A stretch of DNA of 64,000 nucleotides from Flavobacteriaceae bacterium (lineage in GTDB: Bacteria; Bacteroidota; Bacteroidia; Flavobacteriales; Flavobacteriaceae), in NCBI GenBank assembly GCA_016649715.1, contig JAENXC010000008.1, positions 1 to 64,000 of the forward strand, read 5' to 3'. Positions 2,776-47,791 of the stretch are shown piece by piece (the first letter of the stretch is position 1; each line of letters opens with the position of its first letter). A model generated the notes under the pieces. It made no database searches. It was not told the origin of the DNA and saw only the letters and a list, made by a program, of their open reading frames with translations. The translations under genes were made by a program, and so were the position numbers.

Positions 2776-2840
2776 AGTTTTATTTTTTATTGCAATTCTT
2801 TATTTTTTATTCTTACTGCGTACTGCTACTGAATACTTTT

Positions 2841-4199: not shown

Positions 4200-4203
4200 G
4201 GGC

Positions 4204-6286: not shown

Positions 6287-6298
6287 AATTCAGTGTCT

Positions 6299-6326
6299 CA
6301 GGTTTCAGGTTTCAGGTTTCAGGTTT
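6299..6326. repeat. Heptamer tandem array (CAGGTTT)x4
   Basis: Four perfect copies of CAGGTTT, read on the plus strand, sit between murG and murC and end 13 bases from the murC TTG start. Read in the murC sense the unit is AAACCTG. An A-rich run follows at 6327-6337. Confidence 0.95.
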
Positions 6327-6367
6327 CAAAAAAAAAATATCAATCGTTCAAAATTCTCCTTTGGGAG

Positions 6368-8643: not shown

Positions 8644-8656
8644 TTATAAAGTTTAT

Positions 8657-8684
8657 AGTTTCTGGTTTCTGGTTTCTAGTTTCT
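8657..8684. repeat. Heptamer tandem array (RGTTTCT)x4
   Basis: Four copies of (A/G)GTTTCT lie between murD and ftsW. The array ends 13 bases from the ftsW GTG start, the same distance as the CAGGTTT array has from murC. In the ftsW sense it reads AGAAACC. Confidence 0.92.
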
Positions 8685-8691
8685 CAAAAAA

Positions 8692-10029: not shown

Positions 10030-10030
10030 C

Positions 10031-11263: not shown

Positions 11264-11267
11264 TTTG

Positions 11268-29059: not shown

Positions 29060-30070
29060 ATGAAGATTATCCTTTTCTTAATTTTTTCGTCTTTTATTTT
29101 CTCCTGCAACGCTACCCAGCACAGTAACGGCCCGAAAAAAACAAACGTTGATTACGCCAACACCATAACCGCCCAGGACCTTAAAAAACACCTCTACATT
29201 TATGCAGGAGATGAAATGGAAGGCCGGATGACAGGGACAAAAGGCCAGCATATGGCTTCAAATTACATTCGCGATTTTTATGTGAAGGAAGGCATTAAGC
29301 CCGCTCCCGGAACCAATAATTATTTTCAGGAAATCCCCGCCAGCTTTTTTAACGGAAGAAGGGATCCTCAGCCATCCGAAAACGTGGTGGCTTTTATAAA
29401 AGGCTCCGAAAAACCGGATGAAATAATTGTAATTTCTGCCCATCTGGACCATGTGGGAATGGATGCCAAAGGAAATGTTTTCAACGGTGCGGATGACGAC
29501 GGAAGCGGTACGGTTTCAATTTTAGAAATTGCCCAAGCTTTTCAGCAAGCAGTTAAAGACGGACATCCTCCAAAAAGGTCGATTTTATTCCTTCACGTTA
29601 CAGGTGAAGAAATAGGGCTTTATGGTTCAAGATATTATACTGAAAACCCACTATTTCCATTGGCAAATACTGTTTGCGATCTGAACATTGATATGATTGG
29701 CAGAATTGACCCCGACAAAAAGGACAATCCAAATTATCTCTATTTAATAGGAAGCAACATGTTGAGCCAAGAATTGCAGGATGTTTCTACTGAAGTGAAC
29801 AACAAATACACAAAGCTAGAGCTGGATTACAAATTTGACGATCCCAACGATCCGAACCGTTTCTATTACCGAAGCGACCATTACAACTTCGCAAAAAACA
29901 ATGTTCCTATTATTTTCTATTTCAACGGCGTTCACGAAGATTACCACAAAATGACCGACACGCCCGATAAAATTGAATATGATTTAATGGCAAAACGCGC
30001 CCAATTAATCTTTTTGACTGCTTGGGAACTTGCTAATCGGGATCATAGAATTACAGTGGATAAAAAATAA
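29060..30070 (+). CDS. M28 family aminopeptidase lipoprotein
   Basis: A 336-residue zinc peptidase of family M28. Lipobox IFSC with Cys16, then the di-zinc ligands: His and Asp in SAHLDHVGM, Asp in NGADDDGSGT, the catalytic Glu pair in TGEEIGLYGSRYY, Asp in LNIDMIGRID and His near FNGVHEDYHKMTDTPDKI. Likely an outer-membrane or periplasmic aminopeptidase that trims peptides. ATG start. Confidence 0.93.
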   Translation: MKIILFLIFSSFIFSCNATQHSNGPKKTNVDYANTITAQDLKKHLYIYAGDEMEGRMTGTKGQHMASNYIRDFYVKEGIKPAPGTNNYFQEIPASFFNGRRDPQPSENVVAFIKGSEKPDEIIVISAHLDHVGMDAKGNVFNGADDDGSGTVSILEIAQAFQQAVKDGHPPKRSILFLHVTGEEIGLYGSRYYTENPLFPLANTVCDLNIDMIGRIDPDKKDNPNYLYLIGSNMLSQELQDVSTEVNNKYTKLELDYKFDDPNDPNRFYYRSDHYNFAKNNVPIIFYFNGVHEDYHKMTDTPDKIEYDLMAKRAQLIFLTAWELANRDHRITVDKK

Positions 30071-30210: not shown

Positions 30211-31503
30211 CTAATTCAATGAATTTTTAATAAGCTTAAAAGTTTGTTGTGATTTTTCTGTTTGTATTTTTAGAATATACGTCCCAGCGCTTAATGTTGT
30301 AGTTTCAATTTTGAAATTATCTTGAACTTCAACTTTTATTTCACAGCCCAACACATCAAATAAACCTACATCTTTTAGTGGAAGCTTTGATTCTATAAAC
30401 AATTCATCTGTAAACGGGTTCGGATAAACGCCAATAAGATCTGTATCGTTATTTGTAATTGCTAATTGACCACAATTTGGATTTTCTCCAGCTTCCATAC
30501 TTAAAGTACCGTTTTCAATAAACCAATTTTCCCAACTTCCGCCAGTGCCTGTTTCCCAATCTGAAAGGTCAAAATAGTTAGGGCCACCATAAGTGCCAGG
30601 AACTTTATAAACCTTTATAGCTTCTCCATTACGGTTCCAAGTTACAGGTGTGCCAGCCACAACTACTTCTGGAGCATATTCCGTTACGCAATTGGCCTGA
30701 AGAAAATAGGCATATTCCGGATAGTCAGGATATTCGCCATACACGAATGCTTTTCCGTCAGGCTCTACGCAAACTGCTGTATAATCATTGCAAGCTATGC
30801 CAAAACTTCTTGGGCCATTATCCTGTATAAATCGTGCTAAAAAAACACTTATCCTACCTTGTCTGTCACGATCGGTGAAGTGGGTGTCTGTTATAAGATT
30901 CTGCATAAATGGCAACTCCAAAAAATCGTTATATCCTAATGCAACCCTTGGATGATATGGATTGCTCAGGGCGACATTGCTTTCAAGGGTACCGTATTGT
31001 GCCGTAAAATAAGTACTGCCCATAATTGCCATTCCCGCGCTCGTGCCACCAATTACGCCGTGTTTTATATTTATATACTCATTGAGGGTGGTTTCCATCG
31101 CGTTGTCCTTAAAATAGGATACATAATCCCATTGATCGCCACCAGCAACCCAAATTGCTTCTGCATTCGCTACTTTCTGTAATACATAAGGATCTGTAGC
31201 ACCATCTGTATTATTTATAACCAATGTAGTGACCGAATTAAGGGTTACGCCCAATTCACTATAAAAATAATTGTTGTAACCATCATCTCCTGAAGCGCGC
31301 AATACCACAACATCGCCCCCATCGGCCTTATTCAGAAACCAAACCATCGCTTCGTCATTTTCTGAAGACCCACCCATTAAGCAAATTCCGGGTTGGTGGT
31401 TTGTATTGACATCGGTGGTACTGCCTGTAATGTATTCGGTATAATCTTGAGCAAAAATTAGGGTTGAAAAACTTAATGCCACCAATAGTAGTATCCTTTT
31501 CAT
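30211..31503 (-). CDS. Cyanophycinase-family (S51) protein with T9SS sorting domain
   Basis: 430 residues: a type I signal (cleavage after IFAQ), an S51 domain (about 35-290) and a type A T9SS C-terminal domain (about 355-430, GVYPNPFTDELFI ... GTYILKIQTEKSQQTFKLIK). The nucleophile is Ser155 in GGTSAGMA, the histidine is His208 in DTHFTDRDRQGR, and GGDQ is at 121-124. At the position of the catalytic Glu the protein has Asp240 (IACNDYTA against GIDESTA in its neighbour). Predicted to be on the cell surface or secreted. Last gene of the locus, 13 bases after the M20 gene. Possible substrate: cyanophycin; the Asp change could alter or reduce activity. Confidence 0.85.
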   Translation of the reverse strand: MKRILLLVALSFSTLIFAQDYTEYITGSTTDVNTNHQPGICLMGGSSENDEAMVWFLNKADGGDVVVLRASGDDGYNNYFYSELGVTLNSVTTLVINNTDGATDPYVLQKVANAEAIWVAGGDQWDYVSYFKDNAMETTLNEYINIKHGVIGGTSAGMAIMGSTYFTAQYGTLESNVALSNPYHPRVALGYNDFLELPFMQNLITDTHFTDRDRQGRISVFLARFIQDNGPRSFGIACNDYTAVCVEPDGKAFVYGEYPDYPEYAYFLQANCVTEYAPEVVVAGTPVTWNRNGEAIKVYKVPGTYGGPNYFDLSDWETGTGGSWENWFIENGTLSMEAGENPNCGQLAITNNDTDLIGVYPNPFTDELFIESKLPLKDVGLFDVLGCEIKVEVQDNFKIETTTLSAGTYILKIQTEKSQQTFKLIKNSLN

Positions 31504-31516
31504 AATTCAATCTTAA

Positions 31517-32842
31517 TCAATTTTTAATATTTTGTTGCATCATTCGGTACATCAACACTGCAGTTATCTTCGCTTGAACACCAACTGTATTAAGGTTTCC
31601 CATTTCTTCAACTGTATGGTCGCCCGAGCCGCCCGTTAGCCCCAAACCATCCAAAGCCATAGCAACATATCCAGATGTAAATGATATATCGGCTGCGCCG
31701 GCATTTCTCGGATTCACTGCTTCCACAGCTCCAAAACCTAAATTCTGGCTTACTTTATTGAAATGTTCCAATAATCTCATATTGCCTTCCGTTTGCGCCA
31801 ATGGTGGATATCCTTCATTGTCGAATAATAATTCTGCCAATGTTTTTGGATAATTTTTAGAGACGATTTCCTTCATGATTCTTTTCGCCTTTTGCAACTG
31901 TTCGGGTGAAACAGCTCTCAAATCGCCGTGAACAATTGCCTTTTGGGCAACCACATTATTTTTTCCGAAGGCAGTACCGCCTGTTAAATCTTCATTGGGC
32001 GCTACGTTTGTTCCTCCCAAAATAAAGCCCGGATTAAAGGTAAGGTCATTCTCTTTCGCCAATTGTAGATAGAATTCATTTAAAATACGAGCCGTTTCAT
32101 ATATGGCTCCTGCGCCGATATTCTCTGTAAATATTTGTGAGGAATGGGCTGGCTTTCCAGTCACTGTTAGCTGCCAATCTTCAGACCCTCTTCGGGAAAC
32201 CACAATTGTTTTTGGGTTGTTGTCGCCATTTTCAAATCCCAAGGCAATATCGGCTCTTTTTGCGCCTTCAACTAAATCCTTTTTTGACAATTCAATTGGA
32301 GAACCGCTTTTTTCTTCATCGCCAGTCATTATTATTTCGACGGACATATCATCTAAAGCCCCAGATTCTTTTAATGCTTTCATTGCCAAAATGATTATTA
32401 CATCACCCCCTTTCATATCTGCTACTCCAGGACCTTTCATTATTGAATCATTAAGCATCGAGAATTCTTGAAGCGGGCTGTCCAATTCAAAAACCGTATC
32501 TAAATGACCGATCAATAAAAACTTAGGGCCCTTTTTACCTTCTTTTTTGGCAATAAGATGTCCGGCACGGCCATACTCTTCGCCAGATGTCAATTCTGTT
32601 GTAAAACCTAGCTTATCCAGTTCGGCCTTGTATATTTCACCTACTTTCCGAACACCTTCAATATTTAAAGAGCCGCTATTTATATTCACTGTTTTTTTTA
32701 GTAATTCTATAGAGGCTGGGAGATTTTTATCTACCGATTTTACAATGCTCTTTTCCATCTTGGTGTTTTGTGCCAAAGTACAAGTACCGAAGGACAGCAA
32801 CATCAAAATGATTATTTTTTCAAATTTCAATTTTAAACTCAT
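31517..32842 (-). CDS. Exported M20 family metallopeptidase (carboxypeptidase G2-like)
   Basis: 441 residues with an N-terminal signal (cleavage near TLAQ). M20 zinc ligands and catalytic residues are in LIGHLDTV (His about 112), GVADMKGGD (Asp about 141) and TGDEEKSG (catalytic and metal-binding Glu pair about 175-176), with the C-terminal His in GSGDHTVEE. Such enzymes cut peptides or N-acyl amino acids, often with C-terminal acidic or basic residues. In this operon it could split the beta-Asp-Arg dipeptides made by cyanophycinase, but this is inference. The true ATG is at 32842; the codon in front of it is TTG. Confidence 0.88.
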   Translation of the reverse strand: MSLKLKFEKIIILMLLSFGTCTLAQNTKMEKSIVKSVDKNLPASIELLKKTVNINSGSLNIEGVRKVGEIYKAELDKLGFTTELTSGEEYGRAGHLIAKKEGKKGPKFLLIGHLDTVFELDSPLQEFSMLNDSIMKGPGVADMKGGDVIIILAMKALKESGALDDMSVEIIMTGDEEKSGSPIELSKKDLVEGAKRADIALGFENGDNNPKTIVVSRRGSEDWQLTVTGKPAHSSQIFTENIGAGAIYETARILNEFYLQLAKENDLTFNPGFILGGTNVAPNEDLTGGTAFGKNNVVAQKAIVHGDLRAVSPEQLQKAKRIMKEIVSKNYPKTLAELLFDNEGYPPLAQTEGNMRLLEHFNKVSQNLGFGAVEAVNPRNAGAADISFTSGYVAMALDGLGLTGGSGDHTVEEMGNLNTVGVQAKITAVLMYRMMQQNIKN

Positions 32843-32846
32843 CAAT

Positions 32847-33701
32847 CTAATTTATAGCAAACGTTTCGCCCGGCAAATAGACATTCAATGAAAGATTATG
32901 TGCGCCAAGCTTTCCATTATTTTCATTTTTTGATTCTGTGGGATTTTTAAGAACGATAACCTGCGATTCGCCTAAAACCTCAGCCATATTACCTTCAACT
33001 AGAATGGCGGTAGATTCGTCAATGCCAATGCCCATTAGTTGTGGATGTTCAATCACCGCGCTAATGAGTCTATTGTACCGACTTCGCTTCACAAAATGTT
33101 GGTCGATAATAACACCCGTTAGCATTCCCAAACCTGTTTTAATTTCGATATTTTCTTCCTCTATATTTCTGAAAGTGGCAGCGTAGTCAGTATGTTTCAG
33201 TTCATTACCCGTAATCATCATTTTGCTCATAACCGCAGCTCCTGCACTTGTGCCAGCAACCAAACTACCTTTGCTGAATGCTTCGTGAATAGCCTCTTCC
33301 GCAGCAGTGCCGCCAACAATGTCCATAAATCTATTTTGGTCTCCACCGGATATGTAAATCATTTTGGCATTTTTGATTGAGTCTAATTTAGATTTAGACA
33401 CATTTTCATCTTTATAGATCTGAAGACCAACTATATTAGTAAGACCCGCTTCCACGAATTGCTTTTTGGCATAATAAACGGCTGAATCCGGTTCGGCGCT
33501 GGACATTGGCAAGATTATGCCATAGCCAGATTTATCCAACTGCGCTTCTTTAATAATGCGTTGCACCATGGCTTCGGGCCTTGAGCCACCGCCAATAATT
33601 ACCAGTTTACCATTGCCGTCGGATTGCTGCGCAAAAGCTGAAAACTGAAGCGCAGCAAAACCGATTAAGGCAAGGGGGATATAATAATTTAAAAGTTTCA
33701 T
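32847..33701 (-). CDS. Exported cyanophycinase (peptidase S51)
   Basis: 284 residues. A signal peptide (LIGFAALQFSAFAQ) precedes the S51 domain. The motifs fit CphB cyanophycinase: SGGDQNRFMD (119-), the nucleophile Ser152 in GTSAGAAVM, His202 in IDQHFVKRSRYNRL and Glu229 in GIGIDESTA. The His-to-Glu spacing of 27 matches Synechocystis CphB (His174, Glu201). Cyanophycinase cuts the Asp backbone of cyanophycin to release beta-Asp-Arg dipeptides. Most intracellular CphB proteins lack a signal, so this one would act on external polymer in the periplasm. It is four bases before the M20 gene. Confidence 0.9.
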   Translation of the reverse strand: MKLLNYYIPLALIGFAALQFSAFAQQSDGNGKLVIIGGGSRPEAMVQRIIKEAQLDKSGYGIILPMSSAEPDSAVYYAKKQFVEAGLTNIVGLQIYKDENVSKSKLDSIKNAKMIYISGGDQNRFMDIVGGTAAEEAIHEAFSKGSLVAGTSAGAAVMSKMMITGNELKHTDYAATFRNIEEENIEIKTGLGMLTGVIIDQHFVKRSRYNRLISAVIEHPQLMGIGIDESTAILVEGNMAEVLGESQVIVLKNPTESKNENNGKLGAHNLSLNVYLPGETFAIN

Positions 33702-33703
33702 AA

Positions 33704-34831
33704 TTAATTCCCAATCACGATACCTCGGGTATCACTGGTGGCTTGGTAATATAGCTCCGTGTTTGAACCATCCAGATTTGCCCGCATCATGGCATCGGTG
33801 CTTCTGTCTCCCCAATATATTTTGTTTTCAGAGGCATCATAACCAATGCCGTAAACAACCCTGCCAATTCCGGTAGCTATAGTTGTAACGTTTGTACCAT
33901 CCAAAGCAGCCGATTTTATACGTATATCGCCAGAGGCCACATATTCATCATAATAAATACGGTCGTTTATGACTATAATACTGCCTGACTCAACATCTGG
34001 CAGAATTAAGGTCTCATTAGTACCGTCAAGGTTCTTGGACCATATACCGCCATCATAATTGCCCCAGAATATTTTTCCGCTTGCAAAGTGAATTGAGACG
34101 CCTTCTGGATCGTTTACTTGGCCAGTTGCGAAATCCTCCTTCGCATTAACATCGGTAGAACTCAAATCGGTTCTTTGAATACTGTTGCTTGTGGACCAAT
34201 ATAGCTTATTGCCGGAATAATCTATTGCCATTCCAATTGGTGAATCCAGACCTATTCTGAAATCCTCAAACTCACTGCCATCCGTGTTGGCTCTATAGAT
34301 TTTGCCCGTATCCAAATCGCTTATATACAATTTGTTGGTAAGGGTATCCAAAACCATTTCGTAAGACGCCTGTAGCGTGATACCCGACAAGGGCGCAAAT
34401 ATGGCTGTCTGATTATTTATCAAGCCTTGATATACTGCGCTGCCATCTGTATAATAAATAGGGATACCCACTGCATTCGGATCTTTTATAACCACGGTTT
34501 TTGTAGTTTCTTTCACTTCCAAAGATATTGAGGTAGTTACTACCAGTTTAACTTGGTAAGCGCCAGGTTCAGTATAAGTATAGGTTGGATTTTCTTCCAC
34601 TGAAGAATCGCCGTTGCCAAAATTCCAATAAAATCTGGCTTCCCCAACTGTTGCAGGAACAATCGATGTATTTGTGAAAATTACCATTGCTGGTGCAAAC
34701 TCGTTATTGTCTATTGTATAAGTAAATTGAGGCACCGTACTGGCTGGCGGTACGGGAAAACCGTCGTCAGAGCAGGATTGGAAAATACTCCCAAAACCTA
34801 TAAATAGTATTGCTATTATTATATTTTTCAT
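33704..34831 (-). CDS. Lipoprotein with PKD domain and YWTD-type repeats
   Basis: 375 residues. Lipobox FQSC (Cys20), one PKD domain (about 35-115, ARFYWNFGNGDSSVEENPTYTYTEPGAYQV) and then six or so repeats of the LDL-receptor class B (YWTD) kind, each with a K(I/L)YW or KIFW core (KLYWSTSNSIQRTDL, KIFWGNYDGGIWSKNLDGT, KIYWGDRSTDAMMRANLDGS). This builds a beta-propeller. A surface binding protein is likely, filling the place SusE/SusF-type proteins have in polysaccharide loci. It is a paralogue of the next gene upstream. Confidence 0.85.
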   Translation of the reverse strand: MKNIIIAILFIGFGSIFQSCSDDGFPVPPASTVPQFTYTIDNNEFAPAMVIFTNTSIVPATVGEARFYWNFGNGDSSVEENPTYTYTEPGAYQVKLVVTTSISLEVKETTKTVVIKDPNAVGIPIYYTDGSAVYQGLINNQTAIFAPLSGITLQASYEMVLDTLTNKLYISDLDTGKIYRANTDGSEFEDFRIGLDSPIGMAIDYSGNKLYWSTSNSIQRTDLSSTDVNAKEDFATGQVNDPEGVSIHFASGKIFWGNYDGGIWSKNLDGTNETLILPDVESGSIIVINDRIYYDEYVASGDIRIKSAALDGTNVTTIATGIGRVVYGIGYDASENKIYWGDRSTDAMMRANLDGSNTELYYQATSDTRGIVIGN

Positions 34832-34838
34832 CTGTATC

Positions 34839-36188
34839 TTATTTTATTAAAGCAATTCCTCTTGGGCTGGCAATTCCTGTTGCGAGGACTTCACGGGCGG
34901 AGCCATCAAGATTTGCGCGGTACAGTTCGCCGGTATCACGACCAGACCAATATAGTTTGTTGATATCGTTGTCTATTTGAATACCGTAAATACGGGTTCC
35001 ATCAGGATCAATGGTTTGTATGTTTGAGCCGTCAAGATTGGCTATATTGAAAACCGCACCGTTCTGGTCGTCAAAATAAATCTTATCATTTACAGTGTCA
35101 ACGGCAACGGCATATCCATACACTCCAGCAATAAGTACTTGTGGATTTGTACCATCCAAATTGGCGACGTAAAGATTTTCCAAATTTACTTCATAGACGT
35201 ACATTTTATTGTTTTCCACATCCAAGGCAATGGCTCTCCATTGTGCTCCAGCTAAATTCAATATGCCTATCTCTGGAGAAGAGCCATCAAGATTTGCTCT
35301 TGAAACATTTCCGTCATCATCCACCCAATACACTTTACTGTTCATTTCATCTACAGCCACACCGTAAGGATCGCCAATATTGCTAACTATCATTTCAGGA
35401 TTGCTGCCGTCTAAGTTTGCTCTCCAAATATTTCCAAGAGGATAGGTGTCAAAATCACTGAAATAAATTTTTTGATTCGTAGCATCATAGGCCAAACCAA
35501 CGCCAACTTTGCCCACAAGGTTTAGCACATCGGTAGTCGTGCCGGAATCATCCAACAGTAAGCTTCTTATATATTCATCGCCATAAGCAATGTAATACAA
35601 TGAGGCAGGTGTAGCCTGACCTGGGCCAACATTTATTTCTTTCGTTGAAGTTTTTGATCCATAAACATTTGTAGCGGTAAGCGACACTGTGTAAGTTCCT
35701 TCAGCCAAATAGGTAAAGTCAGGATTTTCAGCAGTTGAAGTTGAATTGGCTGCATCTCCAAAATTCCACGTATAACTTGTGGCCCCAACAGATGAATTTG
35801 TAAAATGAACCGGAATGCCAGCCACCAGGTTCTCTGCATCTTCTACTTGAAAAGAACTTAATGGCGTAACGGTAATTTCCATATTAGAAATGGTTGAACC
35901 TCCCGCCCCTGTTGAAACCAAACTTACCAAGAACACATTGCTGCTGGTATAGGATTTTGTTGGCGATACTTGTGTAGATGTTGTACCGTCGCCAAAGCTC
36001 CATTTATAGGCCGTGGCATTTTGGGAATTGTTTGTAAACTGAATTGTTTCGCCAATGGCAACTTCAGTTGCACTCGCTGTAAATTCTGCCTGTGACTGCG
36101 GAGGCACTGGGTTGTCATCTTTCTGACACGAAAAAAGGGTCAAAAGAACGAAAGCAAAAAGACTGTGTCTGTTAAGAATTGTTTTCAT
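34839..36188 (-). CDS. Lipoprotein with two PKD domains and YWTD-type repeats
   Basis: 449 residues. Lipobox LFSC (Cys21), two PKD domains (about 33-110, AYKWSFGDGTTST; and 112-190, SYTWNFGDAANST) and a beta-propeller of YWTD-type repeats (KIYFSDFDTYPLGNIWRANLDGS, KVYWVDDDGNVSRANLDGS, KLYWSGRDTGELYRANLDGS). Clearly paralogous to the following gene, with one more PKD. Likely exposed on the outer membrane next to the SusCD complex; the ligand is unknown. Gap of seven bases to the next gene. Confidence 0.85.
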   Translation of the reverse strand: MKTILNRHSLFAFVLLTLFSCQKDDNPVPPQSQAEFTASATEVAIGETIQFTNNSQNATAYKWSFGDGTTSTQVSPTKSYTSSNVFLVSLVSTGAGGSTISNMEITVTPLSSFQVEDAENLVAGIPVHFTNSSVGATSYTWNFGDAANSTSTAENPDFTYLAEGTYTVSLTATNVYGSKTSTKEINVGPGQATPASLYYIAYGDEYIRSLLLDDSGTTTDVLNLVGKVGVGLAYDATNQKIYFSDFDTYPLGNIWRANLDGSNPEMIVSNIGDPYGVAVDEMNSKVYWVDDDGNVSRANLDGSSPEIGILNLAGAQWRAIALDVENNKMYVYEVNLENLYVANLDGTNPQVLIAGVYGYAVAVDTVNDKIYFDDQNGAVFNIANLDGSNIQTIDPDGTRIYGIQIDNDINKLYWSGRDTGELYRANLDGSAREVLATGIASPRGIALIK

Positions 36189-36215
36189 AATATCTGTTTT
36201 AGACTAGTTAGTTTG

Positions 36216-37544
36216 TTAATATCCTGGATTTTGAAACATCCCGGGATCTTTGTTGGTCTGTAATTCGTCAAAAGGTATTGGGAACAAGGTTTGGTTAATG
36301 CTTGTTACATTAACTAGCACATCTATTGCCCGGCCCGTTCTTACAAGGTCGAACCATCTATGGCCTTCAAAAGCAAATTCCACACGGCGTTCTTTTTCAA
36401 TTGCGCTTATTAATTGATCAATGCTATTGGATGTTATTCCAGACAAGCCAGCCCGCGTTCTTACAGTGTTTAAATCAGCTTTTATTTGGTTGGCATCTGG
36501 AGCGGAACCTTTTGCCAAAGCTTCTGCCCTGATTAGATACATATCTGCCAAGCGTATCACTATAAAGTTATCTGCACCTAAGTTTAGATCGTCGTATTTT
36601 ATGGCATACGCCAAATTATCTGCGAAAGCAACACTGGCAGCAAAACGCGTATCGCCAGCTTCATAGGCATCTAATAAATCTTGTGTAGGTTCAACTTCCC
36701 TTCTTCCGTTAAGTGACTTTGGAAAATTGTATTCGGCTATTCTATTGCGTTCCAATTGCGAAAATGAAATTTCAAAAATGGATTCCGCATTTTCTTCATC
36801 TGCAAAAACGTCGGCATAGTTTGAAAGTAGTGTGTAGCCGCCGTTGTTTAATACATCCGAAGCCATTGTTGCTGCTTGTTGATAGTTGCCTTGATACAGA
36901 TAGACTCTTGCCAAAAGTGCTTTGGCCGCAAATTTTGATCCCCGAATTTTAATTCTTGAGTTCGGTAAATTTTCAGCAGCAAAGTTTAAATCGGTAATAA
37001 TTTGTGCATAAACCTCATTCACGGGCACCCGTGGTGCATCCAAACCATTCACCCCAACGGTAGGTTCTAATTTTATGGGAATTGCACCGTAATAACGGGT
37101 TAAATTAAAGTGATTTAAGGCCCTTATAAAATATAGCTCTGCCAAGGCCGCATTTCTTTCTTCCTCCGTCATATCTGGAATGATGGGCACCTTGCTTATA
37201 ACGTTATTCGCCACATTGATCCCGTCATACATTATGGCCCACATATTACTATTGCTGCCGTTCTCGGGAAGCATGTTGTTGTTGTCTACCTCCGCATAAT
37301 CAGAAGCGGTTGCATCTACGGGATGTGATAGGTTATCTGCTGCCAAGTCTGCAAATATGCTGTATGTTCTTCCGTAATAACTAAGGCTTTGCAATGAGGC
37401 ATACGCTCCCAAAATACCCTTATCGATATCTTCTTTTGTTTTGAAGGCATTTTCGGCAGAAATTGAATTTTGTGGTTCAACATCCACGATATTGCAGGAA
37501 AATGCTGCAAGACATATTATTGAAATATATAGTAACTTTTTCAT
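36216..37544 (-). CDS. SusD/RagB family outer-membrane lipoprotein
   Basis: 442 residues with lipobox AFSC (Cys17). The SusD fold of TPR helices and the conserved C-terminal EKERRVEFAFEGHRWFDLVRTGRA and DPGMFQNPGY motifs are present. It forms the lid of the SusC transporter and binds the incoming ligand. It starts four bases after the susC-like stop. The companion genes encode peptidases and no glycoside hydrolase is nearby, so the ligand is more likely a peptide than a glycan. Confidence 0.95.
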   Translation of the reverse strand: MKKLLYISIICLAAFSCNIVDVEPQNSISAENAFKTKEDIDKGILGAYASLQSLSYYGRTYSIFADLAADNLSHPVDATASDYAEVDNNNMLPENGSNSNMWAIMYDGINVANNVISKVPIIPDMTEEERNAALAELYFIRALNHFNLTRYYGAIPIKLEPTVGVNGLDAPRVPVNEVYAQIITDLNFAAENLPNSRIKIRGSKFAAKALLARVYLYQGNYQQAATMASDVLNNGGYTLLSNYADVFADEENAESIFEISFSQLERNRIAEYNFPKSLNGRREVEPTQDLLDAYEAGDTRFAASVAFADNLAYAIKYDDLNLGADNFIVIRLADMYLIRAEALAKGSAPDANQIKADLNTVRTRAGLSGITSNSIDQLISAIEKERRVEFAFEGHRWFDLVRTGRAIDVLVNVTSINQTLFPIPFDELQTNKDPGMFQNPGY

Positions 37545-37548
37545 GTTG

Positions 37549-40500
37549 TTATATTTTTAGATTAACACCCAAAGTGAAAGATTGTGCTTGCGGATAGGTA
37601 AAGAAATCAGTCCCAATGACCGCATTGTCGTCGCCCCTATAGTTAACTTCTGGGTCGAGCCCCGAATAATTTGTAAATGTGAACAAGTTTTGTGTACTTA
37701 AATAAATTCTCATTGAATTAAAAAATCTGCTCTTCATGTTCTTTTGGTTCAAGGTATAGCCTAAGGTTACGTTTTTAAACCTTAAATAAGAACCATCTTC
37801 TATAAATCTAGATGAAACACGTTTGTTTTGTGCAGCGGCAACAGGGTCTGTGGTTGCTCTTGGGATATCCGTAATATCCCCCGGTTGTCTCCACCTTCTG
37901 GTTACCGATTCCAGCTGGTTGTCCCCGCCTTGTAGTGATTCCAAATACAATCGCGACCCATTGAAAACATCATTGCCATAAGAGCCTTGAAGGAATATAC
38001 TCAAATCAAAGTTTTTATAGGCGAAGTTATTGGTGAGACCGCCCACAAAATCAGGATGCGGATTGCCCACGATGGTTCTGTCTGCAGAGGTTATCTCTCC
38101 GTCAAAATTTGTATCTGCATACACAATATCGCCTGTGGAGGGATCTACCCCCAAAGATTGATAACTATAAAACACACCAATTGGTTGGCCTTCCATAATA
38201 CGGTTTCCGCCGCGCCCAATATCATCAATTGGTTGTCCATTGTAAAGTTCGAGCACCTTATTGCGGTTGCCTGCAATATTAAATTGTGTATTCCATGTAA
38301 ATTCTCCAACCAAGTTTTGAGTTGATAGGGTAAGCTCAATTCCTTTATTTTCCACCTTGCCCACATTTTCGGTAATGGATAAAAATCCTGAACTGGGGGG
38401 CAAAGGTCTGCTTAATAATAGATCATTGGTCTGCTTGTCATAATAATCGGCCGTTAATGTAATGCGGTCATTGAACAAGCCAAGGTTTAAACCAATATTG
38501 AGCTGGCGCGTACTTTCCCATTTTAGGTCTGGATTTGGAATATTGCTTGGGTATATGCCCGGAGAACCGCCATAAGAAGTATTCCCATAAAGTTCAGAAT
38601 ATAGAAACGGACTGATATCGTCATTCCCTGTTAAGCCATAACTTACACGAAATTTAAGATCTGATAAAAATTTTACATTTTTCAAAAATTCCTCTTGCGA
38701 AACTCGCCAGGCCAAGGAAGCTGCAGGGAAGAAACCTGTTTTGTTATTCGATCCAAATTTTGATGAAGTATCAAATCTGCCTGTAGCAGTAAAAATATAC
38801 TTATCGCTGAAGTTATAATTCACCCTGCCAAAATAAGAGCGAATACCCTGGTCTGAAGCGCTCGCACTGGCAGAAACAATCGTTGCTGCTGAGTTTATAT
38901 ATTCTAAATCGTCATCAGCAAAATCTTGGCCCCTAATAAAGGAGGACCTAAAGTTTCTTTTTTCAAAACTGTAGCCCACTAACGCTTCAAGTTTATGTTT
39001 GTTAAAGTGTTTGCTGTACTGTAACAAATTGTTGGAGACAATATTTGAAATATTGCTATATGTTTCAAAACCCAAACCATTATACTTGGCGCCCTGAACT
39101 GTTTTTGTAGATTCGTAACCGTGTTCCCGAAAGTTTAGGAAATCCACGCCCAATTTGGACGAAAAAGTTAAGTCTTCAAAAATGTTATAATCAATATATA
39201 TATTCGAGTTTGTGCGATACGAAAAGTTTTCATTTATGGCCTCATTCGCGATGGATACCGGATTTGAATAAGGGCCATCTTGATTGTATGAACCATCCGC
39301 ATTATAAACCGGAAATATGGCAGGAGTTGAAATACCATTTGGCAAAGGGCCGTGCAATGTCTGGTCACCTTCCACCCTATCAGTATGTGCATAGCTTAAG
39401 CCTATGCTGCTGCCTATCTTAAACTTATCTGATAGTTTGTGGTCTAAGTTTGTGCGAAAGTTGAAGCGGTCATAATCCGTCCCAATCAAAATACCTTCTT
39501 GCTGAAATAACGTTCCACTTATAAAAAACTGTGTTTTTTCTGAACCTCCCGTAGCGGAAATTTCATAACTATTTATAGGTGCGGTACGGAAAATAACATC
39601 CTGCCAATCTGTATCTATGGTATTATCGTTTATCTGCTCGTCTGTAAAAACGGTGCTATTTGTTAAATCGTTTCGATATTCTTTCCACTCCCTCGCGTTT
39701 AGCATATCCAGCTTGTTCCAAACGCGCTGAACACCCGAATAGATATTTACGGCAACAGTAGTTACCTGCTCCTTACCACGTTTTGTGGTAATCAAAACAA
39801 TACCGTTAGATCCTCTTGCGCCATATATTGCGGTGGCAGAAGCATCTTTCAATATACTAATGGATTCTATGTCGTTGGGATTTAAATCTGTAAGCGCGCT
39901 AGAGCCTTGGCCGGAATAGCCAATTTGTCCAAAATCGCCCGTGGTAACAGGAATACCATCAATAATATATAAGGGTTGGCTACTGCCACTAATTGAGGTA
40001 AGCCCTCTAATACGAACAGACATTTGACCTCCTGGCGTTCCGGAGTTTTGATTTACCTGCACTCCTGCAGCCTGTCCTTGTAGCAAACCATCAACCGATG
40101 CCAATGGTAAATCTTTAATTTGCTTTGAATTAATTGTGGTCATCGCATCACTTATCAATGATTTTTTTTCGGTGCCATAACCAATTACCACAATTTCCTC
40201 AAGGGCATTGCTGTCTTCAACCATAGTGACATTAACCTTTAATAATCCTACGATTGAAACCTCTTGATCCTTGTAGCCCACATATGATACCACCAAAATA
40301 CTCGCATCATTGGAAACTTTCATCTTAAAATTTCCATCAAAATCTGTAGCCGTACCTTTGGATGTTCCTTTAAGGATTACTGTGGCTCCCACCAAAGGTG
40401 TTCCCAATGCGTCCATAACAGTTCCGGCAATCTCGCGCTCTTGTTGATTTGAGAAAGGAGATTTGGAATCTAAATCCACTTGATTCTTAATAACAATCTG

Positions 40501-40839
40501 TCTATCGTTTATCTTGTAAATTAATCCTGTTTTGGCCAAGGCCTTATCAAGAATTTTGGAGACCGTAGATTCTTTCATTTCCAGCGTAATGTTGTATTTC
40601 AATACATCATCCTTATAGAAGAAAATGTATTCGCTTTTATTTTGGATTTCCTTGAAAAGCTGTTCCAAACTCACATTGGTCACTTTAATATCCATCTTGG
40701 TCTGCGCCTCGGTTATGTTTGCGAAAGCTGAACTGATTCCAAGGCTGATTAAAAGTAAAAAAGTCCGTGTCATATGCACCAGATAATAACTGAAAGATTT
40801 TACCCGCGGAATGGGGTAAGGGTTCTTAATTTTATTCAT
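37549..40839 (-). CDS. SusC/RagA TonB-dependent transporter with STN signalling domain
   Basis: 1096 residues. Signal region (LLLISLGISSAFANITEAQ), a secretin/TonB N-terminal STN domain (about 50-117), a carboxypeptidase-like CarbopepD_reg domain (about 135-210, EIAGTVMDALGTPLVGATV), a TonB box region near ALEEIVVIGYG, a plug and a large beta-barrel that ends in FTLGVNLKI. The STN domain contacts FecR-type anti-sigma factors, and the fecR and ECF genes lie directly upstream. The transporter is therefore expected both to import the ligand and to signal its presence. Confidence 0.96.
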   Translation of the reverse strand: MNKIKNPYPIPRVKSFSYYLVHMTRTFLLLISLGISSAFANITEAQTKMDIKVTNVSLEQLFKEIQNKSEYIFFYKDDVLKYNITLEMKESTVSKILDKALAKTGLIYKINDRQIVIKNQVDLDSKSPFSNQQEREIAGTVMDALGTPLVGATVILKGTSKGTATDFDGNFKMKVSNDASILVVSYVGYKDQEVSIVGLLKVNVTMVEDSNALEEIVVIGYGTEKKSLISDAMTTINSKQIKDLPLASVDGLLQGQAAGVQVNQNSGTPGGQMSVRIRGLTSISGSSQPLYIIDGIPVTTGDFGQIGYSGQGSSALTDLNPNDIESISILKDASATAIYGARGSNGIVLITTKRGKEQVTTVAVNIYSGVQRVWNKLDMLNAREWKEYRNDLTNSTVFTDEQINDNTIDTDWQDVIFRTAPINSYEISATGGSEKTQFFISGTLFQQEGILIGTDYDRFNFRTNLDHKLSDKFKIGSSIGLSYAHTDRVEGDQTLHGPLPNGISTPAIFPVYNADGSYNQDGPYSNPVSIANEAINENFSYRTNSNIYIDYNIFEDLTFSSKLGVDFLNFREHGYESTKTVQGAKYNGLGFETYSNISNIVSNNLLQYSKHFNKHKLEALVGYSFEKRNFRSSFIRGQDFADDDLEYINSAATIVSASASASDQGIRSYFGRVNYNFSDKYIFTATGRFDTSSKFGSNNKTGFFPAASLAWRVSQEEFLKNVKFLSDLKFRVSYGLTGNDDISPFLYSELYGNTSYGGSPGIYPSNIPNPDLKWESTRQLNIGLNLGLFNDRITLTADYYDKQTNDLLLSRPLPPSSGFLSITENVGKVENKGIELTLSTQNLVGEFTWNTQFNIAGNRNKVLELYNGQPIDDIGRGGNRIMEGQPIGVFYSYQSLGVDPSTGDIVYADTNFDGEITSADRTIVGNPHPDFVGGLTNNFAYKNFDLSIFLQGSYGNDVFNGSRLYLESLQGGDNQLESVTRRWRQPGDITDIPRATTDPVAAAQNKRVSSRFIEDGSYLRFKNVTLGYTLNQKNMKSRFFNSMRIYLSTQNLFTFTNYSGLDPEVNYRGDDNAVIGTDFFTYPQAQSFTLGVNLKI

Positions 40840-40895
40840 AATTTTGTGTTAGTTGGTTAATATTGCTGTGGTTACAGTGGTATTGATTTTTAATG

Positions 40896-40923
40896 GCTAG
40901 AAGGTGTTGACGCATCTTCTAGC
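40896..40923 (-). promoter_or_regulatory. Stem-loop between fecR and susC-like genes
   Basis: GCTAGAAG (40896-40903) and CTTCTAGC (40916-40923) form an 8-bp stem. On the minus strand no T run follows, so it is not a normal terminator in the operon direction. It may be an mRNA processing or stability element, or a partial attenuator that separates regulator from transporter expression. Confidence 0.45.
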
Positions 40924-40959
40924 TTTTTAATTACTCAGGTTATTTTAAAGACTGATTTT

Positions 40960-42018
40960 TTAGTTAATAATAATTTTATGATCTGTTAAGAATGTGTACT
41001 CAAATCCTGATGGCTCTGTTTCTTTTATGGTTGCCAAAACACTTTCAATACTATCCTTCACATCTAGATAACCCGAAAAAGTTTCATTGGCCCTTGCACT
41101 GTCAACAATGATGATTTCCACATTATAGTAGCGAGCTACTTTTTTCATTATGGATTTTAAGGAGTCGTTTTTAAAGATAAAAATTCCATCTCTCCAGGAA
41201 AAGTATTGCTCTGTGTTTACATTGGTTTCATATACAGCATACTTGGCCTTTTCATATGTTACCATAGTCCCTGGCTTCATCGTGATCTTTTTTTCAGAAT
41301 TGAATAGCGTGTTTGAAGTATAATTTATCTGAACACTTCCTCTTTTTAAGACAGTATAGACAGCATCGTCATCGCTGTAATTACTAAGATTGAAAATGGT
41401 TCCCAACACTTTTATTTCGTGATTTCTGGCTTTTACAAAAAATGGGGAGTACTTGTTATGGCTCACCTCAAAAATTGCTTCGCCTTCTAGATAAACTTCC
41501 CTTTTATCCGAAGCAAAGCGGGCTGGAAAAATAAGTTTTGAACCCGAATTGAGCCAAACTTTACTGCCGTCTGAAAGCGTTATTTCAGATCGTTTTCCGA
41601 AAGGAACAATCAAAGTATTGAAAACAGGTTCTCCTGAAGAAATGGCATCCTGCTCCACATAACTGGAATGGCCTACGTTCACTTTTTTACCAGATTTAGA
41701 ATAACTTATCTTGGCATCTGTTTCTGATATCGCAATACTTTTTTTATCACTCAATACGAGTTGAATATTTTTAGTATGTATCGATTCATTCTGGGTTTCG
41801 GCAAATTTTTCAATTGCGGAATGATCAACTTTAGTTTTGACTAATGAAACAGTGACGAAACCTATAAGAAAAACAACAGATGCGGCGATGGTAAATTTTA
41901 AAATACGCTTTCTACGTTTGAAGGAGTAGATAGAATTATAAATCCGCTTTCTTAAATGGGATTTATCCTTTTTGGAAAGTTTTTCGAGATTTAGGTTACC
42001 CTTTTTGTAGTGTTCCAT
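40960..42018 (-). CDS. FecR-family anti-sigma factor
   Basis: 352 residues from the ATG at 42018 (the longer frame begins on TTG). A cytoplasmic N-terminus, one transmembrane helix (ILKFTIAASVVFLIGFVTVSLV), a FecR domain (about 125-220, VPFGKRSEITLSDGSKVWLNSGSKLIFPARF) and a C-terminal DUF4974 domain (FIFKNDSLKSIMKKVARYYNVEI) that is predicted to meet the STN domain of the transporter. It should hold the ECF sigma factor until the substrate is sensed. Confidence 0.93.
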   Translation of the reverse strand: MEHYKKGNLNLEKLSKKDKSHLRKRIYNSIYSFKRRKRILKFTIAASVVFLIGFVTVSLVKTKVDHSAIEKFAETQNESIHTKNIQLVLSDKKSIAISETDAKISYSKSGKKVNVGHSSYVEQDAISSGEPVFNTLIVPFGKRSEITLSDGSKVWLNSGSKLIFPARFASDKREVYLEGEAIFEVSHNKYSPFFVKARNHEIKVLGTIFNLSNYSDDDAVYTVLKRGSVQINYTSNTLFNSEKKITMKPGTMVTYEKAKYAVYETNVNTEQYFSWRDGIFIFKNDSLKSIMKKVARYYNVEIIIVDSARANETFSGYLDVKDSIESVLATIKETEPSGFEYTFLTDHKIIIN

Positions 42019-42152
42019 GAATATTTTCAAAAAAGAATATAAAAATGTAGAGCTGCATCTATGAATTTAAATCACAAGAGCTGTTATTACTATAAGTAAG
42101 AACTTTATAATATATAGACACTTTAATTTGAAAAAAAATAAAATATTTGCAA

Positions 42153-42713
42153 TTAGAAAAGGATAAAAAACTGCATTTGCTTGCGTAAAGCCTTGATGGC
42201 CCTGTAAATCATGGTTCTTGAAGATTGTACGGAAATATTCATTACTGTAGCAATTTCTTCGTAAGAATGATTGTCATTAAACCGTAGCGACAATCCTGTG
42301 CGCTGTTTTTTGCTGAGCATTTTTATAGCCTTCGCCAGTTTTTGGGAACGTTCTATTTCCAAATCATCGGACAACAAACTTTCCTCTGGAGCTATTTGAA
42401 GAAGAGAGATTTGTGTTTGATCTGTTGCCATTTCTATTCTTGAGCTTTGAATTCGCCTTACGATTTCATTTTTTAACGAATGCATCAAATAAAAATCAAC
42501 TCGTGCTGGAAGGGAAAGAGTTCTTCGATATTTATACAGATTCAAAAATAAATCGTGGATGCAATCCATAACCAAACATTTATCCGCAGAAAATTTTCTC
42601 CCGTAAGTAAATAAATCATCAATGTAAATGTCATAGAGCATTCCAAGGGCCTCCACGTTACCCGCTTGAAGTTTTTCCCATAAGTTCGATGATTTAGTTT
42701 GATCCCTTTTCAA
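42153..42713 (-). CDS. ECF-type RNA polymerase sigma factor
   Basis: 186 residues. Region 2 (about 20-85, MLYDIYIDDLFTYGRKFSADKCLVMDCIHDLFLNLYKYR) and region 4 helix-turn-helix (about 130-180, LRFNDNHSYEEIATVMNISVQSSRTMIYRAIKALR) are clear. It belongs to the Bacteroidota-specific ECF group that pairs with FecR-like anti-sigmas. The start codon seems to be TTG (42711-42713) because the next ATG would remove part of region 2. It heads the locus; fecR begins 134 bases further on. Confidence 0.92.
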   Translation of the reverse strand: MKRDQTKSSNLWEKLQAGNVEALGMLYDIYIDDLFTYGRKFSADKCLVMDCIHDLFLNLYKYRRTLSLPARVDFYLMHSLKNEIVRRIQSSRIEMATDQTQISLLQIAPEESLLSDDLEIERSQKLAKAIKMLSKKQRTGLSLRFNDNHSYEEIATVMNISVQSSRTMIYRAIKALRKQMQFFILF

Positions 42714-43261: not shown

Positions 43262-43267
43262 GTCCTG

Positions 43268-43342
43268 GGTGGAAGACCGGTTTCGAACCGGCGACCTCTT
43301 GAACCACAATCAAGCGCTCTAACCAGCTGAGCTACAACCACC
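43268..43342 (-). tRNA. tRNA-His (anticodon GTG)
   Basis: The cloverleaf can be drawn on the minus strand: G-1 at 43342, D-arm with AGCTCAGCTGGTTAGAGC, anticodon stem CTTGA/TCAAG around TTGTGGT (anticodon GTG), T-arm GCCGG-TTCGAAA-CCGGT and a 3' CCACC. The extra 5' G is the mark of tRNA-His. The acceptor stem GTGGTTG/CTTCCAC shows two apparent U-U oppositions (pairs 5-68 and 6-67). Confidence 0.93.
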
Positions 43343-43466
43343 ATTTTGCACTACTAAAAGCACAATGCTGTTAAGCGGATGCAAATATAAACCAATATTT
43401 ATGGCTATGCAATACCTCAAAGTAACATTTTTATCGGTTGGTTTCAGTGAGATATCTATGCTGGAC

Positions 43467-44183
43467 CTATATTAAATCAAAAATGGAATCAACGGCAGGA
43501 TAACGCTCTGTTGTAAAACCTTCGCCGAATTCAGTGCCAATAAGTCTTCCCAAATCCTGCGCCCGATAGGTAATACTATCTCTGAAATTGGTTGAGGTAA
43601 TTGGCGTTTCCGGCTCGTCTGCTTCTTTTTGGTGAAACTGGCTTTTGTATGCAAAAACCGCTTCCAGTTTTTTTTCCATAAAATCCGTTACATCCACCAC
43701 AAAATCCGGCTCAATGTTTTTCCATTGAATGTAGTGATAAACGTGTTTTGGCCGCCAAGCCTTTTGGTGATTGCTCTCATAAATGCTTTCAATCTTTTGC
43801 AATCCGCTTAAAAAACAGGCGTCGCTGGCAAGTTGGCTGGCCTTTCCGTGATCAATATGGCGGTCGTAAATGGCGTTGCAAAGCACAATGTCCGGTTGAT
43901 ATTTTCTGATTATTTTAATTATTTCAAGCTTTGATGCAGCATTGTTAACCAAAAATCCATCTGAAAATTCAAGATTGTGCCTAAAGGCTACACCCATAAT
44001 TTTCGCAGCATCGTCCGCTTCCTTATCGCGAATTTCAGCCGTGCCGCGAGTTCCGAGTTCCCCACGGGTAAGATCTAAAATCCCTACTTTCTTTCCGTTG
44101 TATATTTCTTTTGCCAAGGTTGCCGAACATCCCAGTTCCACATCGTCAGGATGTGCGCCAATGGCGAGTATATCAATCTTCAT
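43467..44183 (-). CDS. bshB1: Bacillithiol biosynthesis deacetylase BshB1
   Basis: A PIG-L family zinc deacetylase of 238 residues. The AHPDDVELGC motif (about residues 10-19) and a later DRHIDHGKA motif supply zinc ligands and the general base. The sequence follows BshB1, which removes the acetyl group from GlcNAc-malate on the route to bacillithiol (LDLTRGELGTRGTAEIRDKEADDAA is characteristic). I use the ATG at 44183; the longer frame to 44246 would overlap the upstream gene. Bacillithiol would also serve the persulfide dioxygenase at 27179. Confidence 0.92.
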   Translation of the reverse strand: MKIDILAIGAHPDDVELGCSATLAKEIYNGKKVGILDLTRGELGTRGTAEIRDKEADDAAKIMGVAFRHNLEFSDGFLVNNAASKLEIIKIIRKYQPDIVLCNAIYDRHIDHGKASQLASDACFLSGLQKIESIYESNHQKAWRPKHVYHYIQWKNIEPDFVVDVTDFMEKKLEAVFAYKSQFHQKEADEPETPITSTNFRDSITYRAQDLGRLIGTEFGEGFTTERYPAVDSIFDLI

Positions 44184-44193
44184 AAAACCTGTT

Positions 44194-45360
44194 TTAAATT
44201 TTTTCCATTTTTGAAACCATCTTAAATGCTCCTTCCAAATCGGCAATTATGTCTTCCACTTCTTCAATTCCCACTGAAAAACGAAGCAGCCCATCACTGA
44301 TGTTTTGCCGTTTCCGTTCTTCGGCAGAAAGAAGCGCGTGTGATGTTTTTGCAGGCGACAGTATGGTAGATTCCACACCTGCCAAACTCATTGAAGGTTT
44401 TATCATTTTCAATGCTTTTAAAAAATTGCCCACATTCAAAGATTCATTTATTTCAAAGGAAAGCATTCCCGTGTAACCATTCATTTGCTTTTTTGCAAGT
44501 TCGTATTCCGGATGGCTTTTCAATCCCGGATAATAAACTTTCTCTACCAAAGGGTGCTTCTCCAACCACTTTGCCATTTTTTTCGCGTTCTTGTTTTGCG
44601 CCTTTACGCGGAGCACCATGGTTTTCATGCTGCGTTCCAAAAGCCAAACTGTATAATCACTAAGGCTTCCTCCCAGATTTTTAGCGAGATTCCAAATTTG
44701 TTTTATATGTTCTTCAGAAGCTGCAACGGCTCCCGCCAAAATATCACTGTGGCCGCCCATATATTTGGTGGCGCTGTGAATCATAATATCAATCCCAAAA
44801 TCGGTCGGGGTTTGATTTACTGGGGAAGCAAAAGTATTGTCAATCATTGTTACAATGCCGCGCTGTTTTGCCAATTTTGAAATCATTTCCAAATCGGTTA
44901 TTCGCATCAAAGGATTGGAAGGGGTTTCCACAAAAATTACTTTAGTGTTCTTCTGAATTTTCTCAGAAAAATCTGTTTCGGAAAAACCTTTGGCAAAGGC
45001 GTATTCAATTCCAAATTTATGAAACTCTTCAACCACAAAATTGTACGTTCCACCGTACAAAGTCTGCGGAAGTACCACGTGGTCACCTTTATGCAAAAAC
45101 GCAAGCATAGTGGTGCTTACGGCTGCCATTCCACTTCCGAAGATAAGGGCAGCTTCACACTTTTCGAGCATTGCAATTTTTTTACAGAGCGCTTCCTGAT
45201 TTGGGGTGTTGAAATAGCGTGGATAGCGTTTTACGTCCACATCTTCATACGCATAACTGCTGGACATATACAATGGCGAAATGGCCCCTTTGAACTGTTT
45301 GTCCTCAACCTCACCAACGTGAGTACAGATAGTATTGATTCCTAAATTTTTTGATTTCAT
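44194..45360 (-). CDS. Trans-sulfuration PLP enzyme (cystathionine gamma-synthase/lyase family)
   Basis: A 388-residue fold-type I PLP enzyme of the Cys/Met metabolism family. The PLP-binding lysine is in HSATKYMGGHSDILAGAV, and the SGMAAVSTTMLAFL and ETPSNPLMRITD segments are typical. Gamma-synthase, gamma-lyase and O-acylhomoserine sulfhydrylase activities cannot be separated from sequence alone. It starts on ATG, 10 bases before bshB1, so sulfur and thiol metabolism may be linked. A TACCTTTA -7 box lies 22 bases upstream of the start. Confidence 0.9.
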   Translation of the reverse strand: MKSKNLGINTICTHVGEVEDKQFKGAISPLYMSSSYAYEDVDVKRYPRYFNTPNQEALCKKIAMLEKCEAALIFGSGMAAVSTTMLAFLHKGDHVVLPQTLYGGTYNFVVEEFHKFGIEYAFAKGFSETDFSEKIQKNTKVIFVETPSNPLMRITDLEMISKLAKQRGIVTMIDNTFASPVNQTPTDFGIDIMIHSATKYMGGHSDILAGAVAASEEHIKQIWNLAKNLGGSLSDYTVWLLERSMKTMVLRVKAQNKNAKKMAKWLEKHPLVEKVYYPGLKSHPEYELAKKQMNGYTGMLSFEINESLNVGNFLKALKMIKPSMSLAGVESTILSPAKTSHALLSAEERKRQNISDGLLRFSVGIEEVEDIIADLEGAFKMVSKMEKI

Positions 45361-45381
45361 TTAAAGCAATTTTCAGTTGGT

Positions 45382-45415
45382 TAAAGGTATAAATAACTGA
45401 GAAGAAAATCCCAAA
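45382..45415 (-). promoter_or_regulatory. Candidate promoter of the trans-sulfuration/bshB1 operon
   Basis: On the minus strand TTTG (45412-45415), 22 bases and TACCTTTA (45382-45389) fit the Bacteroidota pattern, with the ATG at 45360. Confidence 0.45.
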
Positions 45416-45467
45416 TATCAAAAATCAAATCCCAAATAAATCCCAAATTTGAAATTTGACACTTCCG

Positions 45468-45494
45468 TTTTGGCATTTAGTTTTTCTATCTTTA
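45468..45494 (+). promoter_or_regulatory. Candidate promoter of the hut operon
   Basis: TTTTG (45468-45472) and TATCTTTA (45487-45494) are close to the -33/-7 pair, and the hutI ATG follows 28 bases later. Confidence 0.45.
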
Positions 45495-45522
45495 TAAAAA
45501 ATTTCGCTATTAAATTTATTCC

Positions 45523-47759: not shown

Positions 47760-47791
47760 AATTCAAAAAAAATATCACTAAATAAAAAATT

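Follow-up and report, generated by a model that had tools for sequence, protein, structure and literature searches.

Nine adjacent genes on a contig of a Flavobacteriaceae bacterium (assembly GCA_016649715.1, contig JAENXC010000008.1, positions 1 to 64,000; this whole stretch of 64,000 nucleotides is called the window) are likely, judging from their sequences and surroundings, to form a locus that scavenges cyanophycin or a related beta-aspartyl polymer. Cyanophycin is a nitrogen-storage polymer of cyanobacteria. The locus is built on a SusC/SusD pair and carries two S51 proteins, S51a and S51b, together with an M20 peptidase. An initial annotation of the window had proposed such a SusCD-based locus, and the proposal is supported here by the scores and predicted folds of the S51 proteins and by the isoaspartyl dipeptidases and the permease that accompany S51a in other Bacteroidota. 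Genomic context is the stronger evidence for cyanophycin, the residues of S51a being weak evidence when taken alone.

Conservation of the S51a neighbourhood

Loci around S51a were taken as the best 80 of 183 matches in one scan of named genomes. One of them (L160) was without the anchor, leaving 79, and partners were counted within 8 kb, with identity floors of 45% for M20, 35% for the isoaspartyl dipeptidases IadA and IaaA, and 30% for the permease. Nearly all loci are titled Bacteroidota or taxa within this phylum; two are titled only "bacterium" and one Halorubrum, the S51a of the latter being identical with the one in a Bacteroidales metagenome-assembled genome (MAG). A search for S51 beside susCD in other genomes, suggested with the initial annotation, found SusC together with SusD in 52 of the 79 loci. 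PKD proteins were present in 51, a YfcC-type permease in 35, an S51b-like protein in 30 (in ten of these, the S51 protein is long, at 652-753 aa), M20 in 19, IadA in 18 and IaaA in 7. Less than 5 kb of sequence was available on a side in 24 loci. Among the 55 with more than 5 kb on both sides, the corresponding counts were 41 for SusC with SusD, 36 for PKD, 21 for the permease, 25 for S51b-like proteins, 18 for M20, 15 for IadA and 4 for IaaA, and three loci had none of these partners, PKD left aside. IadA was confirmed with TIGR01975, which gave 497.9 bits (cut-off 331.25); the permease is of the YfcC/DcuC type and IaaA belongs to PF01112.

The same nine genes, contiguous, in the same order and on one strand, were found in 14 of the 80 named loci. 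In a further genome (G157), the seven genes from SusC to S51b keep this order, and the sequence stretch stops just past SusC. In a Salinivirgaceae MAG (L137), SusC, SusD and a PKD protein come after S51a. As a control, 20 loci of cytosolic CphB from the same family were picked from lower-identity (~30-35%) matches, one having 4.8 kb on one side (L177) and one not being linked to CphA1 (L174). None of them had SusC with SusD and one had SusC alone, whereas CphA1 and IaaA were each present in 19. A chance neighbourhood is ruled out by the identical nine-gene loci together with this control.

Structure of the locus

The nine open reading frames span positions 30211-42713, all on the minus strand, and are listed in gene order.

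42153..42713, minus strand: extracytoplasmic function (ECF) sigma factor of the Bacteroidota type (Sigma70_r4_2; TIGR02937 65.7 bits, cut-off 42.9; TIGR02985 81.1, below its cut-off of 126.4)
40960..42030, minus strand: FecR anti-sigma factor with FecR and FecR_C domains (PF04773, PF16344)
37549..40839, minus strand: SusC/RagA TonB-dependent transporter with an N-terminal STN-like domain (TIGR04056, 944.9 bits)
36216..37544, minus strand: SusD-like lipoprotein, SusD_RagB (PF07980, PF14322; lipobox-like Cys, by eye)
34839..36188, minus strand: PKD2, a lipoprotein with PKD and YWTD/DUF5050 domains (PF18911, PF16472, PF00058)
33704..34831, minus strand: PKD1, a lipoprotein with PKD and DUF5050 domains (PF18911, PF16472)
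32847..33701, minus strand: S51a, a predicted exported cyanophycinase-like serine peptidase (TIGR02069; nine CphB residues; signal peptide by eye only)
31517..32845, minus strand: predicted exported M20 peptidase, a relative of carboxypeptidase G2 (PF01546, PF07687; 1cg2, E 7.6e-27)
30211..31503, minus strand: S51b, a second S51 protein with a sorting tail of the type IX secretion system (T9SS) (TIGR02069 61.6 bits, below cut-off; TIGR04183 43.1, cut-off 23)

The packed, co-directional arrangement and the protein families given by the initial annotation were borne out by the reading frames and by Pfam/NCBIfam scans, the STN domain of SusC scoring marginally below its Pfam cut-off (28.1 against 28.4 bits). 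From the first gene to the last, the intergenic distances are 122, 120, 4, 27, 7, 2, 1 and 13 bases; this range of 1-122 replaces the 2-134 given earlier and depends on the start codons chosen. SusC adjoins SusD, and FecR and the ECF sigma factor belong to the same packed run, as in a SusCD-type utilization locus. Canonical SusCD loci share with the window the SusC/SusD pair, the surface lipoproteins and the STN/FecR/ECF set; they differ in carrying glycan-active enzymes, in place of which the window has peptidases. Indeed, Pfam/NCBIfam scans of the nine proteins returned no glycan-active domain, as had been stated, and neither IadA nor IaaA, with M20 standing in that place. PKD1 and PKD2 are probably surface binding proteins. 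Signal peptides were judged by eye, and a hydrophobic-stretch score failed to separate S51a from cytosolic CphB.

From gene order, family membership, conserved residues and the linkage of S51a with SusCD and isoaspartyl dipeptidases in relatives, we infer a substrate, a direction of flow, compartments and enzyme activities as follows. S51b, secreted by the T9SS, would trim the polymer outside the cell, and SusD and the two PKD/propeller lipoproteins would hold it at the surface. Oligomers would then be imported by SusC with TonB energy and cut to beta-Asp-Arg by S51a in the periplasm. The dipeptide could be split there by the exported M20 peptidase, or pass to a cytosolic IaaA. Induction of the locus would proceed via the STN-like domain of SusC, FecR and the ECF sigma factor. 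If this is true, the SusCD logic extends to an isopeptide polymer, and the locus offers a route of cyanobacterial nitrogen into Bacteroidota.

The S51 proteins

With 170.6 bits, S51a exceeds the cut-off of 126.6 of the curated cyanophycinase model TIGR02069, and its Ser152, His202 and Glu229, noted earlier as a complete CphB-type set, align with Ser132, His174 and Glu201 of CphB. The pocket of CphB comprises Gln101, Asp172, Gln173, Arg178, Arg180 and Arg183 beside Ser132, according to PMC3235067. These residues, together with His174 and Glu201, made up the nine positions that were compared. All nine are present in the window S51a and in 82 of 84 S51a sequences; L125 and L158, which make up the rest, are truncated and show no mismatch. 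The PepE-like protein of the window's genome retains five of the nine. With the PepE model (cut-off 156), S51a reached 38.0 bits and S51b 19.2 bits. A grouping of the S51 proteins with PepE, which the initial annotation had named for checking, is thus ruled out by model scores, by structure comparison and by the tree, which contains a single PepE-like protein: both proteins score and fold nearer CphB. Among the matches listed, the S51a sequences nearest to that of the window are from Aequorivita (92% and 90%), which makes this genus, or a close neighbour of it, the probable source of the window. Within the family, 5 of 299 genomes, counting that of the window, contain an S51a ortholog above 50% identity, and the locus is therefore a patchy accessory.

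For S51b, the proposed T9SS tail was confirmed, and the third position of the triad has to be corrected to Asp instead of Glu. The triad is thus Ser-His-Asp in the window, and this position is Glu in 25 and Asp in 5 of 30 S51b sequences (window included). The window S51b differs from CphB at two of the nine positions, with Thr for Gln173 and Asp for Glu201; the former matches Thr223 of CphE, as given in the same paper (PMC3235067). Compared with CphB and CphE, S51a therefore has all nine residues, and S51b has either the CphB residue or a CphE-like Thr at eight; both differ from these enzymes, S51a by eight additional residues between the Ser and His motifs and by forming its own clade, S51b by Asp for Glu and by its score below the family cut-off, for which reason it is named cyanophycinase-like only. 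The predicted structure of S51b (mean predicted local distance difference test (pLDDT) score 88.9) comes closest to CphB structures (7uqw, E 1.5e-14), with Salmonella PepE at 1.6e-7.

Several findings weigh against a cyanophycin locus. Eight of the 79 S51a loci are without SusCD, M20, IadA, IaaA, permease and S51b. The PDB sequence nearest to the window SusC, 8aa4, is a SusC homolog without a known peptide link in these results. The genome of the window encodes its own CphB and IaaA. S51b stays below the cyanophycinase cut-off (61.6 against 126.6 bits), and only 14 of 30 S51b sequences, that of the window among them, retain Arg178. In the tree, S51a is a clade separate from CphB. Its Ser-to-His spacing is 50 residues in 80 of 81 measurable sequences and 49 in the remaining one; the spacing in six CphA1-family CphB proteins, in 3en0 and in 7uqv is 42 (a regular expression designed for the insert recognised only 24 of 84 sequences and was not used). 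Finally, the PDB sequence nearest to S51a is 7uqv (107.9 bits, against 82.8 for 3en0), which is titled "Pseudobacteroides cellulosolvens pseudo-CphB" and has the identical nine residues. This pseudo-CphB is reportedly inactive. Because the nine residues are shared with it and S51a is a separate clade with an insert, family membership leaves the substrate unsettled.

The fixed insert, the separate clade and the deposition, under the name pseudo-CphB, of an enzyme that shares all nine residues would all suit another function, namely the uptake of isoaspartyl peptides (e.g., from aged protein) or of another beta-aspartyl compound, with S51a a specialised beta-aspartyl peptidase and no cyanophycinase. 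Moreover, IadA and IaaA are described as promiscuous for beta-aspartyl dipeptides in the abstract of PMC10206079, so that finding them does not point to cyanophycin in particular. We nevertheless consider this function unlikely: all six pocket residues of CphB are retained in S51a, the association of SusCD with a T9SS-secreted enzyme suggests a polymer, and two kinds of S51 partners occur in 30 of the 79 loci.

A third type of S51 protein, of 652-753 aa, was seen in ten S51a loci (L098, L101, L103, L106, L124, L127, L133, L141, L147 and L154), several times directly upstream of SusC or IadA. Of the nine positions, it deviates at 173, where it has Ser/Thr, and at 201, which is mostly Asp. Besides, relatives of S51b lie away from S51a and SusCD in six genomes of the family (L044, L045, L076, L077, L078 and L079), so that S51b may work on its own as a secreted enzyme. 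A short S51b relative (L080:9561-10166, genome G122) matches in pieces only and looks degenerate.

The M20 peptidase and dipeptide handling

The closest sequences and folds to the window M20 are those of carboxypeptidase G2 (CPG2) and other M20 peptidases. CPG2 is nearest both by sequence (1cg2, E 7.6e-27; profile 7.9e-33) and by predicted structure (mean pLDDT only 73.9), with an identity of ~23-24% in structural alignment, and the structural neighbours include the poly(aspartic acid) hydrolase PahZ2 and carnosinases. Catalytic and dimerisation domains are present, and residues H113, D142, E177, E204 and H409 are invariant in 20 sequences. These residues presumably fall at the metal ligand positions of CPG2. 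A beta-Asp dipeptide resembles carnosine in being a beta-amino-acyl dipeptide and differs from it by an extra carboxylate, which makes cleavage of beta-Asp-Arg by M20 chemically plausible. Its position among the genes suggests that M20 is possibly the dipeptidase of the locus. More tentatively, it could represent a new exported class of beta-Asp-Arg dipeptidase, which would finish degradation in the periplasm and make IadA/IaaA and a dipeptide permease unneeded for scavenging. The isoaspartyl dipeptidases of Firmicutes and Bacteroidota are said to remain undiscovered in the text of PMC10206079 bearing on them, and M20 is a candidate for that of Bacteroidota.

Two architectures were distinguished: 19 loci have M20 without permease, IadA or IaaA nearby, and 35 other loci have the permease. 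They supply a census of the dipeptide-handling genes that accompany exported cyanophycinase-like enzymes in Bacteroidota. ECF and FecR genes at 40% identity or more were found in 16 of the 79 loci, all of the M20 type, i.e., in 16 of the 19 M20 loci. The two architectures would be consistent with cleavage of the dipeptide in the periplasm by M20-type bacteria and with its import and cytosolic cleavage by the others.

Whole genomes were searched in sets of 49, 34, 36 and 36 that were drawn from the 80 loci and favoured M20 types. IadA scored above cut-off in 13 of 49 genomes and in none of the 18 M20-type ones; in G304 it occurs in two pieces below cut-off. The IaaA family PF01112 was present in 34 of 34 genomes (G321, which holds L107, has only one member, at 223.6 bits), and the absence of an alternative dipeptidase can therefore not be claimed. 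A relative of the permease (32-37% identity, 30% floor) lies elsewhere in 7 of 18 M20-type genomes and none does at 50% identity or more, a strict line given that the locus permeases of the Bacteroidales type score only 33-49% overall. Four genomes (G336, G342, G344 and G328) carry both an M20 ortholog and the locus permease. In the window's own genome, the permease gave no match at E 1e-5, a search without positive control and little informative. On the S51a tree, about three changes account for the M20 state; this small number and the permease relatives elsewhere weaken the mutual exclusion of M20 and permease as a proof of function.

One M20 ortholog each was found in 16 of 36 genomes (E 1e-40), 7 with M20-type loci and 9 without. 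In 7 of these 9, no S51, SusC or SusD gene lies within five genes on either side of M20; in L102 and L105, S51a is near a contig end, so that M20 may adjoin it there. Such solitary orthologs weaken the view of M20 as a dedicated cyanophycin gene. They would suit a general exported peptidase and, with the pseudo-CphB precedent, a locus whose S51 proteins are inactive or otherwise employed and which imports something else, such as a glycan or general peptides. This is very improbable, given that S51a retains the triad and that S51b does so with Asp in place of Glu, and given the repeated linkage to isoaspartyl dipeptidases, and the lack of a glycan-active enzyme among the nine proteins.

Cyanophycin metabolism of the carriers

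The genome of the window contains a cluster of CphA1, cytosolic CphB and IaaA (L035:3444-10595, contig C48), with a second, more distant IaaA-like gene nearby. The bacterium is thus probably able to synthesise and degrade cyanophycin intracellularly. Among the 49 S51a genomes searched, CphA1 scored above cut-off in 17, i.e., in 14 of 18 M20-type genomes and 3 of 31 others, and G329 gave a partial match (690.9 bits). The lack of CphA1 in most non-M20 carriers is as expected of scavengers; since some genomes are incomplete MAGs, these absences are soft. The presence of CphA1 in the window's genome and in most M20-type genomes would also agree with the same mechanism acting mainly on the cyanophycin of kin, a carrier storing the polymer and recovering it from lysed neighbours. 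That CphA1 above cut-off was not found in 32 of the 49 genomes, including 4 of the 18 M20-type ones, argues against this source, which appears improbable as the main one.

Comparison with described loci

The initial annotation knew of no described Bacteroidota locus of this kind; excerpts of two papers (PMC10206079, PMC6243061) contradict this. In a passage of PMC10206079, Ben Hania 2017 (10.1111/1462-2920.13639) is cited for a "cyanophycin utilization locus" of a Bacteroidetes strain, and for this strain, L21-Spi-D4, Salinivirga cyanobacteriivorans, the part of PMC6243061 concerned indicates two S51 proteins, of which one is plain and the other carries a Por secretion domain. As far as the excerpted citing papers describe it, the Salinivirga locus resembles the window in combining cyanophycinase genes with a transporter for scavenging and in its plain and secreted S51 proteins; it has iadA, whereas the window has an exported M20 and ECF/FecR genes. 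The abstract of the original description may liken the locus to polysaccharide utilization loci. A literature search, limited to a partial look at its matches, gave no description of a cyanophycinase with SusC/SusD or of an M20-type locus.

A comparable neighbourhood is that of Citromicrobium sp. JLT1363, an alphaproteobacterium. There, an outer-membrane TonB-dependent transporter lies near a cyanophycinase gene, as in the window, and cyanophycin was already listed as its likely substrate, in the portion of PMC3400609 dealing with this transporter; no SusD, second S51, M20 or FecR/ECF is mentioned in that portion. Cyanophycinase and SusC/SusD appear separately in excerpts of PMC11573002. The general kind of locus is thus already published, and what is new here is M20 replacing IadA/IaaA and the permease, mostly under ECF/FecR control.

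Genes beside the locus

An M28 peptidase gene (29060-30070) converges on the end of the operon; M28-like matches near S51a in a few other loci are probably due to chance. On the other side of the operon, positions 43267-49483 hold tRNA-His (43267-43341) followed by histidine breakdown genes, namely hutI (45523), a hutG-like gene below cut-off (46758) and an FtcD/FchA fusion (47792). A protein of 1030 aa (49744-52836) has a partial likeness to the BREX methyltransferase PglX (121.9 bits, against a curated cut-off of 500). The start of the window (799-14728) is occupied by a cell-division and cell-wall cluster with ftsZ, ftsA, mur ligases and a transpeptidase.

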